From NCBI RefSeq assembly GCF_900108345.1, contig NZ_FNVV01000014.1, positions 2,031,664 to 2,095,663 on the forward strand: a stretch of DNA of 64,000 nt, read 5' to 3'. Within the stretch, counting starts at the first letter, position 1. Each line of letters starts with the position of its first letter. Origin of the DNA: Bacteroides ndongoniae. GTDB taxonomy: Bacteria > Bacteroidota > Bacteroidia > Bacteroidales > Bacteroidaceae. Below the pieces are notes generated by a model. That model was not told where the DNA came from. It worked only from the letters and a program-made list of their open reading frames with translations, and did no database searches. Positions 56,742-61,309 of the stretch are shown here, piece after piece. A program made the translations under genes and the position numbers.

Positions 56742-56771
56742 TTTGCTTTTAAAAGAAAAGTATTACTTTTG
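56742..56771 (+). promoter_or_regulatory. Promoter of the Phe/Tyr operon
   Basis: TTTG (56742-56745), 18 nt and TACTTTTG (56764-56771). The leader peptide starts 33 bp after the -7 element. Confidence 0.75.
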
Positions 56772-56804
56772 CCCCATAATTAAAAACAAAAAGAGAACAA
56801 AAGC

Positions 56805-56891
56805 ATGAATCTGTTTACTTACGCATATTACTTCTTCTTTTACTTTTACTTTAGCAACAAAGTAGAGCGGGAGTTTGTATGTGTCAAGTGA
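56805..56891 (+). CDS. Phe/Tyr-rich leader peptide of the pheA attenuator (28 aa)
   Basis: The peptide begins MNLFTYAYYFFFYFYF and continues SNKVEREFVCVK, with 7 Phe and 5 Tyr in 28 residues and twelve aromatic residues in the first 24. It lies between a good promoter and a rho-independent terminator, ahead of the prephenate dehydratase gene. Ribosome stalling at these codons under Phe (or Tyr) shortage would control the downstream operon. Confidence 0.92.
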   Translation: MNLFTYAYYFFFYFYFSNKVEREFVCVK

Positions 56892-56971
56892 CAGTGACGC
56901 TTAAGAACTGAATTAAGAACTTAAAGTTAAAGATATGAATCCCGCTCCCATGTTTGGAAGCGGGATTTTTT
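56865..56971 (+). promoter_or_regulatory. Transcription attenuator of the Phe/Tyr operon
   Basis: The terminator stem is AATCCCGCT (56938-56946) with AGCGGGATT (56959-56967), then a T run. The alternative partner GAGCGGGA at 56865-56872, inside the leader peptide just after the aromatic codons, can pair with TCCCGCTC (56940-56947) and block the terminator. A ribosome stalled on Phe/Tyr codons leaves this segment free; a ribosome at the stop codon (56889) does not. This is the classical mutually exclusive arrangement. Confidence 0.88.
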
Positions 56972-56987
56972 GTTACAGTACAGACTT

Positions 56988-57836
56988 ATGAAAAGAATAG
57001 CCATTCAGGGAACATTGGGTTCCTTCCACGACATTGCAGCCCACCGATACTTCGAAGGTGAAGACATCGAACTGATATGCTGCGCTACATTCGAGGACGT
57101 ATTCAAGTCCATTCGCCAGGACAGCCAAGTGATTGGTATGCTGGCCATTGAAAACACCATTGCCGGAAGCCTGCTTCACAACAACGAACTGTTGCGGCAA
57201 AGCGGCACGCAAATCATCGGCGAACACAAACTGCGCATCTCGCACAGCTTTGTCTGCCTGCCCGAAGAGGACTGGAACGACATCACCGAAGTCAACTCGC
57301 ACCCCATCGCACTGATGCAGTGCCGCGATTTCCTCAGCCAGCATCCTAACATCAAAGTTGTGGAAGGCGAAGACACCGCCCGTAGTGCCGAAATCATCCA
57401 GAAGGAACACCTGAAAGGACATGCAGCTATCTGTTCGAAAGCAGCAGCCGAACTGTATGGCATGAAAGTATTGCAGGAAGGCATTGAGACAAACAAGCAC
57501 AACTTCACCCGTTTCCTAGTAGTGGCCGACCCCTGGCAGGTAGACGAACTGAACCGCCACCGCTCGCACGAGGTGAACAAAGCAAGCATCGTATTCACCC
57601 TACCGCACACCGAAGGAAGCCTGTCGCAAGTGTTGTCCATCCTGTCGTTCTACCGCATCAACCTGACGAAGATACAGTCGCTGCCCATCATCGGACGGGA
57701 ATGGGAATACCAATTCTATGTAGACGTCGTGTTCGACAATGTACTGAAATACAAACAATCCATCGCGGCCATCACACCGCTGACCAAAGAACTTAAAATA
57801 CTGGGAGAATATGAAGAAGGAAAATCTACACTGTGA
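56988..57836 (+). CDS. pheA: Prephenate dehydratase
   Basis: This 282-aa enzyme converts prephenate to phenylpyruvate. Motifs are QGTLGSFHDIAAHRYF (6-21), IENTIAGSLLHNNELL, NFTRFLVV (the TRF catalytic motif) and a C-terminal ACT domain (SIVFTLPHTEGSLSQVLSIL, residues about 198-217) for feedback by Phe. No chorismate mutase domain is present; that activity is on the DAHP synthase fusion downstream. The start at 56988 follows the attenuator by 17 bp. The aminotransferase gene overlaps it by 26 bp. Confidence 0.95.
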   Translation: MKRIAIQGTLGSFHDIAAHRYFEGEDIELICCATFEDVFKSIRQDSQVIGMLAIENTIAGSLLHNNELLRQSGTQIIGEHKLRISHSFVCLPEEDWNDITEVNSHPIALMQCRDFLSQHPNIKVVEGEDTARSAEIIQKEHLKGHAAICSKAAAELYGMKVLQEGIETNKHNFTRFLVVADPWQVDELNRHRSHEVNKASIVFTLPHTEGSLSQVLSILSFYRINLTKIQSLPIIGREWEYQFYVDVVFDNVLKYKQSIAAITPLTKELKILGEYEEGKSTL

Positions 57837-59118
57837 TACAGCTACGAGTAGTGAGCTACGAGCTACGAGTAGTGAGCTACGAGCTACGAGTAATGGGTTA
57901 CGAGCTACGAGTAATGGGTTACGAGCTACGAGTAAGGAGCTACAAGCTACGAGTTACAGGCCGGCGGACCGGTTGTCTTCCGTCAGCGAATACTACTTCT
58001 CGCGCAAGCTGAAGGAAGTGGCACAGATGAATGCCCAAGGAATGGACGTTATCAGTCTGGGTATCGGAAGCCCCGACATGCCGCCCTCCGAACAGACCAT
58101 CCGCACCTTGTGCGAAGCTGCCCAGAACCCCGACGGTCACGGCTACATGCCCTATGTAGGCATCCCCGAACTGCGCTCGGCCTTTGCCGCATGGTACAAG
58201 CGCTGGTACGGCGTGGAACTGGACCCCAAGACCGAAATACAACCGCTGATCGGTTCGAAAGAAGGTATCCTGCACGTCACACTGGCTTTCGTCAACCCCG
58301 GCGAACAGGTACTGGTGCCCAATCCCGGCTACCCAACCTATACGTCACTAAGCAAGATTCTGGGAGCCGAAGTGGTGAATTACAACCTGCGCGAGGACAA
58401 CGGCTGGATGCCCGACTGGGAACAGCTGGAAGCCATGGACACGAGCCGCGTCAAGCTGATGTGGACCAACTATCCCAACATGCCGACCGGCGCACCCGCC
58501 ACGCCCGAGCTGTACGAACGTCTGGTTGACTTTGCCCGCCGCCGTGGCATCATCATCGTGAACGACAATCCCTACAGCTTCATCCTGAACGACCATCCGC
58601 TGAGCATCCTCAGCGTGCCGGGTGCCAAGGACTGCTGCATCGAGTTCAACTCGATGAGCAAGAGCCACAACATGCCCGGCTGGCGTATCGGTATGCTGGC
58701 CTCGAACCCGCAATTCGTACAATGGGTGCTGAAGGTAAAGAGCAACATCGACAGCGGTATGTTCCGCGCCATGCAGCTGGCTGCCGCCACTGCCCTCGAC
58801 GCCACTGCCGACTGGTACGAAGGTAACAACTGCAACTACCGCAACCGCCGCCAACTGGCCGGAGAAATCATGCACACACTGGGCTGCACCTACGACGAAC
58901 GTCAGGTAGGCATGTTCCTCTGGGGACGCATCCCCGACTGGTGCAAGGATGTGGAAGAGCTGACCGAACGCGTGCTACACGAGGCCCGTGTCTTCATCAC
59001 CCCCGGCTTCATCTTCGGCTCGAACGGTGCACGCTACATCCGCATCTCGCTCTGCTGCAAGGATGCCAAACTGGCGGAAGCATTGGAGAGAATAAAGAAA
59101 ATGAAGAGTGAAGAATGA
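57811..59118 (+). CDS. Class I/II PLP-dependent aminotransferase with repeat-derived N-terminal insertion
   Basis: This 435-aa enzyme should transaminate phenylpyruvate/4-hydroxyphenylpyruvate. The conserved part begins near residue 50 (PADRLSSVSEYYFSRKLKEV), with LGIGSPDMPPSEQT, TNYPNMPTGAPA and the PLP lysine Lys284 in NSMSKSHNMPGWRIG. Before it lie five 7-residue repeats (ATSSELR, ATSSELR, ATSNGLR, ATSNGLR, ATSKELQ) encoded by 21-bp tandem units at 57841-57945. Homologues as I know them start close to the ADRLxSVSEYYFSRKL segment, so the repeat is an in-frame expansion between the ATG overlapping pheA and the enzyme. Confidence 0.92.
   Translation: MKKENLHCDTATSSELRATSSELRATSNGLRATSNGLRATSKELQATSYRPADRLSSVSEYYFSRKLKEVAQMNAQGMDVISLGIGSPDMPPSEQTIRTLCEAAQNPDGHGYMPYVGIPELRSAFAAWYKRWYGVELDPKTEIQPLIGSKEGILHVTLAFVNPGEQVLVPNPGYPTYTSLSKILGAEVVNYNLREDNGWMPDWEQLEAMDTSRVKLMWTNYPNMPTGAPATPELYERLVDFARRRGIIIVNDNPYSFILNDHPLSILSVPGAKDCCIEFNSMSKSHNMPGWRIGMLASNPQFVQWVLKVKSNIDSGMFRAMQLAAATALDATADWYEGNNCNYRNRRQLAGEIMHTLGCTYDERQVGMFLWGRIPDWCKDVEELTERVLHEARVFITPGFIFGSNGARYIRISLCCKDAKLAEALERIKKMKSEE
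57841..57956 (+). repeat. 21-bp GAGCTACGAGTAGT tandem repeat inside the aminotransferase gene
   Basis: Five 21-bp units start at 57841, 57862, 57883, 57904 and 57925, with a partial sixth to 57956. Each reads GCTACGAG plus a 13-nt variable part (TAGTGAGCTACGA, TAATGGGTTACGA, TAAGGAGCTACAA). The unit length is a multiple of three, and the chosen frame avoids the TAG and TAA triplets in the other frames. Confidence 0.88.
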
Positions 59119-59245: not shown

Positions 59246-59264
59246 CATGCTTAATTCAATCGTT

Positions 59265-60332
59265 ATGGAACTCGAATTAGAAAAGATTGCCCTCCCGGGC
59301 GTCGACGACAAACGTCCCTTGGTGATTGCAGGTCCGTGCAGCGCCGAAACAGAAGAACAAGTAATGAACACTGCCAAACTACTGGCAGATAAGGGAATCA
59401 AAATATTCCGTGCCGGCATCTGGAAGCCGCGCACCAAACCCGGAGGCTTCGAAGGCATCGGCGTAGAAGGCCTGGCATGGCTCAAGGAAGTGAAGAAAGA
59501 AACAGACATGTACGTCGCTACCGAAGTAGCTACCGCCAAACATGTATTCGAGGCACTGAAGGCCGGCATCGACATCCTGTGGATAGGCGCACGCACCACA
59601 GCCAACCCCTTTGCCATGCAGGAGATAGCCGACGCATTGCGCGGTGTGGACATTCCCGTGCTGGTGAAGAACCCCGTCAATCCTGACCTCGAACTGTGGA
59701 TCGGTGCCCTGGAGCGCATCAATCAGGCCGGACTGAAACGTCTGGCAGCCATCCACCGCGGATTCTCGGCATACGATAAGCGGATTTATCGCAATCTGCC
59801 CCAGTGGCACATCCCCATCGAACTGCGCCGCCGCATCCCCAACCTGCCTATTCTGTGTGACCCCAGCCACATCGGCGGTAAGCGCGAACTCGTGGCACCG
59901 CTGTGTCAGCAGGCCATGGACCTGGGTTTCGACGGCCTCATCGTAGAGAGCCACTGCAATCCGGATGCTGCCTGGAGCGACGCCGCACAACAGGTGACGC
60001 CAGACATTCTGGACTACATACTGAATCTGCTCGTCATCCGCGAAACCAACCAGAGCACCGAAAACCTGGCCGAACTGCGTAAGCAGATTGACGAGTGCGA
60101 CGACAACCTGATTCAGGAACTGGCCAAACGTATGCGAGTGGCTCGCGAAATAGGTACTTACAAGAAGGAGCACGGCATGACCATCCTTCAGACCGGCCGC
60201 TACAATGAAATCCTCGAAAAGCGCGGCTCGCAAGGTGCCCTCTGTGGTATGGATTCGGAATTCATCAAGAAAGTATTCGAAGCTATCCACGAGGAGAGTG
60301 TAAGGCAGCAGATGGAAATCATTAATAAATAA
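59265..60332 (+). CDS. Bifunctional 3-deoxy-7-phosphoheptulonate synthase / chorismate mutase
   Basis: This 355-aa fusion has a type I-beta DAHP synthase (about residues 1-250; RPLVIAGPCSAETEEQV, IFRAGIWKPRTKPGGFEG, LCDPSHIGGKREL) and a C-terminal AroQ chorismate mutase (about 262-355; LAELRKQIDECDDNLIQELA, RMRVAREIGTYKKEH). It commits carbon to the shikimate pathway and makes prephenate for pheA and tyrA. The same domain order is known in Prevotella nigrescens, where the mutase domain mediates feedback. ATG 59265 is preferred; an ATG at 59247 would add six residues and sits next to the repeat. Confidence 0.95.
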   Translation: MELELEKIALPGVDDKRPLVIAGPCSAETEEQVMNTAKLLADKGIKIFRAGIWKPRTKPGGFEGIGVEGLAWLKEVKKETDMYVATEVATAKHVFEALKAGIDILWIGARTTANPFAMQEIADALRGVDIPVLVKNPVNPDLELWIGALERINQAGLKRLAAIHRGFSAYDKRIYRNLPQWHIPIELRRRIPNLPILCDPSHIGGKRELVAPLCQQAMDLGFDGLIVESHCNPDAAWSDAAQQVTPDILDYILNLLVIRETNQSTENLAELRKQIDECDDNLIQELAKRMRVAREIGTYKKEHGMTILQTGRYNEILEKRGSQGALCGMDSEFIKKVFEAIHEESVRQQMEIINK

Positions 60333-60535: not shown

Positions 60536-61309
60536 ATGAGAATATTAATCCTCGGAGCCGGCAAGATGGGCTCCTTCTTCAACGACGTACTGAGTTTCCA
60601 GCACGAGACGGCCGTGTTCGACGTCAACCCGCACCAGTTGCGCTTTGTCTACAACACCTACCGCTTTACCACGCTGGACGAGATAAAAGAGTTTGAACCC
60701 GAGCTGGTGATCAACGCCGCCACGGTGAAATACACCCTCGACGCCTTCCGCCAGGTATTGCCCGTACTGCCCAAGGACTGCATCCTGAGCGACATCGCTT
60801 CGGTGAAAACCGGGTTGAAAAAGTTCTATCAGGAAAGCGGCTTCCGCTACGTGTCCACCCACCCCATGTTCGGACCCACGTTCGCCAGCCTCAACCACCT
60901 GAATACGGAGAACGCCATTATCATCACCGAAGGCGATCACCTGGGACGCATCTTCTTCAAGGACCTGTATCAGACGCTGAAGCTGAACATCTTCGAATAC
61001 ACCTTCGACGAGCACGACGAGACGGTGGCTTACTCGCTGTCCATCCCCTTCGTTTCGACTTTCGTCTTTGCAGCCGTGATGAAGCATCAGGAAGCACCGG
61101 GCACCACCTTCAAGAAGCACATGGCCATTGCTCAGGGGCTGCTGAACGAAGACGACTACCTGCTGCAGGAAATCCTCTTCAACCCGCGCACGCCGGCACA
61201 AGTCGAGAATATCCGCGTCGAGCTGAAGCAGCTGTTGGAAATCATCACCAACAAGGATGCTGAAGGCATGAAGAAATACCTGACGAAGATCCGCGAAAAC
61301 ATCAAGTAA
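60536..61309 (+). CDS. tyrA: Prephenate dehydrogenase
   Basis: This 257-aa enzyme oxidatively decarboxylates prephenate to 4-hydroxyphenylpyruvate. It begins with a Rossmann loop LILGAGKMGSFFNDVL (4-19), and has LSDIASVKTGLKKF and the active-site STHPMFGPTFASLN (His in STHPMFGP). The C-terminal helical domain follows. It completes the Tyr branch started by the upstream fusion enzyme. Confidence 0.92.
   Translation: MRILILGAGKMGSFFNDVLSFQHETAVFDVNPHQLRFVYNTYRFTTLDEIKEFEPELVINAATVKYTLDAFRQVLPVLPKDCILSDIASVKTGLKKFYQESGFRYVSTHPMFGPTFASLNHLNTENAIIITEGDHLGRIFFKDLYQTLKLNIFEYTFDEHDETVAYSLSIPFVSTFVFAAVMKHQEAPGTTFKKHMAIAQGLLNEDDYLLQEILFNPRTPAQVENIRVELKQLLEIITNKDAEGMKKYLTKIRENIK

Follow-up and report, generated by a model that had tools for sequence, protein, structure and literature searches.

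A predicted phenylalanine/tyrosine attenuator precedes pheA across Bacteroidia and is doubled in some lineages

Does the short reading frame rich in Phe and Tyr codons that precedes pheA in Bacteroides ndongoniae belong to a transcription attenuator and, if so, which amino acids would it sense and how widely does it occur? Leader attenuation is a textbook mechanism, and leaders responding to several amino acids are familiar from the enterobacterial operons ilvGMEDA and thrLABC. Cases from Bacteroidetes may already be listed in a comparative survey of bacterial attenuation. The mechanism requires a ribosome close behind RNA polymerase, and to our knowledge it is not settled whether ribosomes follow the polymerase this closely in Bacteroidota. 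According to a survey from 2010, no leader peptides had been demonstrated beyond Proteobacteria and Actinobacteria (PMC2965389), and in a map of B. thetaiotaomicron, sORFs within long 5' UTRs were found to be reminiscent of such leaders (PMC7366714). We analyzed a stretch of 64,000 nucleotides of the B. ndongoniae genome, referred to as the window, for which the original prediction had proposed a complete Phe/Tyr attenuator in front of an operon serving both branches of the pathway.

All elements of the locus lie on the + strand. A promoter of the Bacteroidetes/Bacteroides type (56742-56771) consists of TTTG at 56742-56745, an 18-nt spacer and TACTTTTG at 56764-56771; a sigma-70 promoter scan of the window gave no match at this site. 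An A-rich untranslated stretch leads to the leader ORF MNLFTYAYYFFFYFYFSNKVEREFVCVK (56805-56891; ATG at 56805, TGA at 56889-56891), whose 28 amino acids comprise 7 Phe and 5 Tyr. Its codons 4-16 (56814-56852) form the putative regulatory run, in which 11 of 13 codons specify Phe or Tyr. The 3' end of this run represents RNA segment 1, for which the RNAalifold consensus shows pairing with segment 2. Segment 2, the putative antiterminator strand AGAGCGGGAG (56864-56873), encodes the leader residues VEREF, and GAGCGGGA at 56865-56872, inside the leader, can form eight perfect pairs with TCCCGCTC at 56940-56947 in the 5' arm of the terminator. Helix 2 of the consensus is a hairpin containing the leader stop codon (56873-56908), and helix 3 is the stem (56938-56967) of an intrinsic terminator composed of segments 3 and 4 and a T tract (56938-56972). 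A simple + strand terminator scan did not pick up this stem, probably because of its one C-A mismatch on this strand. The window contains a single attenuator unit rather than a tandem.

Downstream, pheA (56988-57836) encodes prephenate dehydratase with an ACT-like C-terminus (PF00800, 2.7e-55). It is followed on the same strand by genes for a class I/II aminotransferase (57811-59118; PF00155), for DAHP synthase fused to chorismate mutase type II (DAHPS/CM; 59247-60332; PF00793 and PF01817) and by tyrA for prephenate dehydrogenase (60536-61309; PF02153, 1e-9; NF006409, 1e-18, which is below the curated cut-off of that model). Judged from gene context only, the aminotransferase probably acts on an aromatic substrate. 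These domains bear out the gene names of the original prediction, and promoter, 28-residue leader, terminator and competing antiterminator segment were all found where it had placed them. The arrangement of a Phe/Tyr leader before pheA is not due to chance: no other of the 615 small ATG ORFs in the window is as dense in Phe/Tyr as the leader (10 of 12 residues; next best 8), and the leader RNA folds 4.1 standard deviations more stably than dinucleotide shuffles, none of 200 shuffles being as good.

To assess its distribution, we looked for pheA in 295 genomes from the order, 126 of which gave a match, and in 198 genomes of the phylum, 172 of which did so; from the search in named genomes the best 80 loci were retained. 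Upstream DNA was drawn from a sample of the matches in which better matches were favoured, the loci were oriented by tblastn, and at least 200 bases upstream of pheA were required for the 215 loci that were counted. A leader ORF dense in Phe/Tyr together with a terminator was present in 202 of these 215 loci, i.e. in 76 of 77 in the Bacteroides group, in 85 of 89 across Bacteroidales and in 41 of 49 in the phylum-wide set. In 157 of 189 loci the promoter motif TAnnTTTG occurs no more than 70 nt from the leader ATG, compared with 7 of 189 after shuffling, and 146 of these 157 carry TTG at the -33 place as well. Search of Bacteroidales for aromatic leaders before pheA, as had been proposed, returned leader and terminator in 85 of 89 loci. 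The notion of leader attenuation being complete in a Bacteroidales operon stands, but the case is no isolated oddity: as judged from these sequences, a Phe/Tyr attenuator before pheA appears to be the rule across Bacteroidia.

Several of the loci without a leader have a different gene neighbourhood. According to our reading of the sequences, pheA lies directly 3' of an aroA-like gene in L200, L204 and L210, and another gene lies immediately 5' of pheA in L022 and L043. The five most distant pheA genes (L217-L221), which form a separate clade, have no leader, and L027 has an AT-rich upstream region devoid of one. L068 carries a short leader, MITVNTIRFFFYFKMEA, which is below the detection threshold used. 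In L150, from an unfinished assembly, the leader core is intact, while ~45 nt between promoter and core including the start codon are absent.

The way in which the leader codons vary points to translation. Among 60 distinct Bacteroides-type sequences, core codons vary mostly by synonymous third-base changes or by exchange of Phe for Tyr and vice versa: codon 11 is TTT in 38 and TTC in 19 sequences, and Phe-Tyr exchange occurs at codons 6, 8, 10 and 12. Codons 13-16 (TAC TTT TAC TTT), which pair with segment 2, are almost invariant in nucleotides. The leader tail VEREF is nearly invariant in nucleotides in the same 60 sequences because this stretch is at the same time segment 2. Codon changes and conserved promoter may be taken as signatures of a translated and regulated leader.

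Which amino acids would be sensed? Leader cores of Bacteroides contain 478 Phe and 360 Tyr codons (~48% and 36%, respectively), and dual sensing of Phe and Tyr would fit this codon content. The gene order pheA-aminotransferase-DAHPS/CM-tyrA is found in 69 of 80 Bacteroides-group loci, the others being mostly truncated at the end of a contig or locus, and in 11 of 40 distant loci, where most of the remainder show related orders; one gate would thus control both branches and the entry step. Alternatively, the attenuator might sense one amino acid only, mainly Phe as in the case of E. coli pheA, and Tyr codons would be carried along since UAC and UAU keep the pairing of segment 1. The near invariance of codons 13-16 and their pairing with segment 2 mean that RNA constraint could indeed hold some of the Tyr codons in place. 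However, Tyr accounts for about one third of core codons in each group (0.36, 0.33 and 0.34), even where a lineage has another segment 2 sequence; the four codons named above, which lie 5' of the paired part, accept either Phe or Tyr; and the operon includes tyrA and the gene for DAHP synthase. We therefore regard sensing of a single amino acid as unlikely, though as the most serious of the alternatives.

Outside Bacteroides, Trp is commoner inside the run than expected, making up 10 of 131 and 9 of 78 residues other than Phe/Tyr as compared with an assumed ~1.25% (p ~7e-6 and 6e-7, respectively, values computed on related sequences that are not independent). Trp codons are absent from the runs of 78 Bacteroides-type leaders. 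This suggests that leaders outside Bacteroides may sense all three aromatic amino acids. Loci with Trp codons in the run include L054, L057, L059, L072, L076, L084, L088, L175, L177, L180, L182, L201, L202, L203, L214 and L216, among others.

We then considered the competing structures. In 133 nonredundant units, the segment 2 region pairs with its own terminator arm at a mean of -13.1 kcal/mol, compared with -8.8 kcal/mol for the arms of other loci and -6.0 kcal/mol for shuffled sequences. Not one of 10,000 permutations was as good as the total for own-arm pairing, which exceeded that of the unit's own shuffles in 132 of the 133 units. To guard against circularity, segments 2 and 3 were subsequently located independently by motif search, and the registers found in this manner agreed with pairing in 82% compared with a permuted mean of 75%, a level never reached in 2000 permutations. 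At the base immediately 5' of the CGGGA core, the combinations G-C (28), A-T (18), C-G (14) and T-A (13) all occur, and the paired fraction is 0.68 as compared with 0.35 after permutation. Within Bacteroides, the 2:3 pairing is invariant in 39 sequences and, since it never varies, neither supports nor opposes a switch. Structural support within this group comes from the terminator and the hairpin at 56873-56908: the whole structure shows compensatory changes, with 15 cells in three pairs (0 of 500 shuffles), and two pairs of the hairpin display such changes, the column pair 118-133 occurring as AU, GC and GU. This hairpin is strongly conserved in 39 Bacteroides-group loci, as is the sequence that follows the ORF up to CTTAAGAAC; within the hairpin, the opening base of leader codon 27 (Val/Ile) and the base opposite it covary. 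Possibly, the hairpin represents a polymerase-pause hairpin that also draws segments 2 and 3 together.

The position of segment 2 relative to the codons is likewise telling. Values for the gap between the last Phe/Tyr codon and segment 2 concentrate at 8-13 nt, whereas the start of segment 2 ranges from -43 to +5 nt relative to the end of the leader stop. Such constant spacing in spite of a shifting stop codon is expected if the position of the stalled ribosome is the selected quantity. In folding calculations, a long stable 1:2 hairpin forms in the leader RNA without a ribosome and hides segment 2, hence the probability of 2:3 pairing is 0 for the nascent RNA up to 56955. It rises to 0.94-0.97 when a ribosome is placed at codon 9, 13 or 16. 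A ribosome stalled within the run yields more 2:3 pairing than one at the stop codon in 76 of 76 Bacteroides-type units and in 125 of 133 other units. With the ribosome at the stop, the mean probability is 0.08 in other families and 0.34 in Bacteroides, and in the window it amounts to 0.97 or 0.59, depending on whether the footprint is set to -15 to +14 or to -18 to +12. The Bacteroides leader stop is located ~17 nt past segment 2, which a ribosome halted at this stop masks only partly; therefore, termination under plentiful supply would probably require release of the ribosome and refolding of 1:2. For the full-length RNA at equilibrium the terminator form is always preferred, implying that control has to be kinetic, the usual case for attenuators.

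These features suggest the following course of events. Transcription would start at ~56777 and a ribosome would begin to translate the leader at 56805. When charged tRNA-Phe or tRNA-Tyr is scarce, it would stall within codons 4-16 and break the long 1:2 hairpin, setting free segment 2 (56864-56873), which lies ~12 nt 3' of the end of the run. This strand could then pair with segment 3 (56940-56947) once this has emerged, so that the terminator would be blocked and polymerase would continue into pheA-aminotransferase-DAHPS/CM-tyrA. When both charged tRNAs are plentiful, the ribosome would pass segment 2 and reach the stop at 56889; segment 2 would be covered and subsequently re-sequestered in 1:2, allowing the 3:4 terminator to form and to end transcription near 56972. 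We assume here that 1:2 refolds after ribosome release and before segment 3 emerges, and that ribosome and polymerase are coupled in Bacteroidota.

The 1:2 hairpin that exists in the absence of a ribosome would also be compatible with a riboswitch, a T-box or a protein-bound leader, i.e. with a translation-independent switch in which the ORF is incidental. We consider this very improbable: at the gathering threshold no Rfam family, T-box and amino-acid riboswitches included, matches in the window, the Phe/Tyr codons are kept while the RNA sequence of the leader differs between lineages, and the leaders of other families have their stop codon directly 5' of segment 2, a position meaningful only for a ribosome. 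Very probably, the element before pheA is a transcription attenuator of the classical, ribosome-mediated kind and gauges charged tRNA-Phe and tRNA-Tyr. The case is built on the parts, their conservation, covariation, spacing and computed energetics, from which we infer that the leader is translated, that transcription terminates in vivo, in which direction the response goes and that both amino acids are sensed. Comparison lends strong support to the Phe/Tyr attenuator initially read from this one locus, by way of the class-wide leader, the covarying antiterminator and terminator, the fixed spacing between codons and antiterminator, and the conserved promoter.

At ~15-17 loci, two units in series, each comprising leader, antiterminator and terminator, are present upstream of pheA (L015, L018, L019, L020, L036, L038, L041, L070, L072, L073, L090, L092, L191, L213 and also L017; weaker cases are L083 and L174). 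No TAnnTTTG promoter was found between the two units at these loci, and the second ATG is mostly located 15-40 nt 3' of the first terminator. In L017 the first unit ends in a hairpin AATCCCG...CGGGATT with a weak T tract. Further candidates (L010, L012, L067, L071, L075, L161, L178 and L179) were dropped as their frames looked spurious or the first unit was unconvincing. Pairing within the units averages -13.0 kcal/mol and cross pairing -7.7 kcal/mol, indicating that tandem units are largely orthogonal. The tandem state changes ~9 times on the pheA tree, at least 8 of these changes being forced by well supported branches, which implies that it was gained or lost repeatedly. A leader without regulatory function, the upstream terminator being constitutive or the ORF encoding a small functional protein, is hardly credible given this recurrence as orthogonal units and the covarying, mutually exclusive antiterminator that outperforms shuffled sequences in 132 of 133 units.

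Other amino acid operons of the same genome possess leaders, too. Upstream of hisG (L269, G000:C1:909500-910700, minus strand), a His leader, MRTVITHHHHHHPGE, is accompanied by a TACTTTTG promoter and a terminator, making up a complete-looking putative histidine attenuator. The leader MLHTSINLAVLHIIRVVVLKSRA upstream of ilvD (L270, G000:C2:445700-447300) contains Ile, Leu and Val codons and is followed by a terminator ending in GAAAGGCTTTTTT; it probably belongs to a branched-chain attenuator. The Bacteroid-trp RNA RF01692 has its single match in the genome at L268 (G000:C2:1512900-1514300, minus strand; 90.7 bits), with leader MKTRFVNTYWWWRPLQLLQS and a terminator. No clear thr leader was found on inspection of this genome. 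The his, trp and ilv leaders with their terminators count in favour of an attenuator at pheA.

How does the element relate to known systems? An attenuator of this type is recognized by a short ORF rich in end-product codons between promoter and first gene, an intrinsic terminator between this ORF and the gene, and an antiterminator that excludes the terminator. Ahead of pheA we found the first two, and the third with covariation across lineages and in invariant form within Bacteroides; membership in the ribosome-mediated class appears well supported by this anatomy and covariation. As to codon placement, the calculations clearly have a stalled ribosome freeing the antiterminator strand, while masking of that strand by a ribosome at the stop is clear in other families and only partial in Bacteroides. 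The E. coli pheA attenuator (RF01859) likewise has a Phe-rich leader peptide and the 1:2/2:3/3:4 logic, but the present leader combines Tyr with Phe and its operon adds the aminotransferase, DAHPS/CM and tyrA; the E. coli element comes from a different phylum and the likeness is one without demonstrated sequence kinship. A permissive Rfam scan gave sub-threshold matches only, among which Phe_leader RF01859 had the best E-value (56820-56973, E 0.096), and assignment to this family was rejected at 23 bits compared with a gathering score of 55. As in ilvGMEDA and thrLABC, a single leader encodes several end products of the pathway, but these are aromatic amino acids and the host belongs to Bacteroidota. 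Bacteroid-trp, a Bacteroidetes leader RNA deposited in Rfam (Weinberg 2010, PMC2864571), is cis-regulatory as well, but has Trp codons (a WWW leader in this genome), trp genes and a different sequence, and it does not match within the window. Closest in gene and class is a structured 5' element before pheA described in a transcriptome study of Flavobacterium psychrophilum, conserved in Flavobacteriaceae and without Rfam matches; the main text of that paper points to signs of leader-peptide attenuation ahead of amino-acid operons and gives neither peptide nor mechanism for pheA (PMC9723704). Within the openly searchable literature, subscription papers being outside the search, we found no description of a Phe/Tyr leader before pheA or of tandem leader-peptide units. 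Already known are thus the attenuation mechanism as such and the structured element in Flavobacteriaceae, while the class-wide reach, the mixed Phe/Tyr code, the Trp codons outside Bacteroides and the tandem attenuators off one promoter appear to be newer.

Taken together, we lean towards the view that these leaders constitute an ancient, class-wide family of aromatic attenuators in Bacteroidia with an evolvable code, Phe/Tyr in Bacteroides and Phe/Tyr/Trp elsewhere, which was repeatedly doubled into two orthogonal units off one promoter that would act as a two-stage gate, and which implies that ribosomes closely trail RNA polymerase in Bacteroidota. As Bacteroides is genetically tractable, its conserved attenuator offers a direct test of whether ribosome and polymerase are coupled, and the tandem units in relatives raise the clean question of what a second attenuator in series adds. 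For a dominant gut phylum, the attenuator provides a rule by which synthesis of aromatic amino acids would be regulated: it is predicted, very probably, to turn on the genes for Phe and Tyr synthesis when these amino acids run low.
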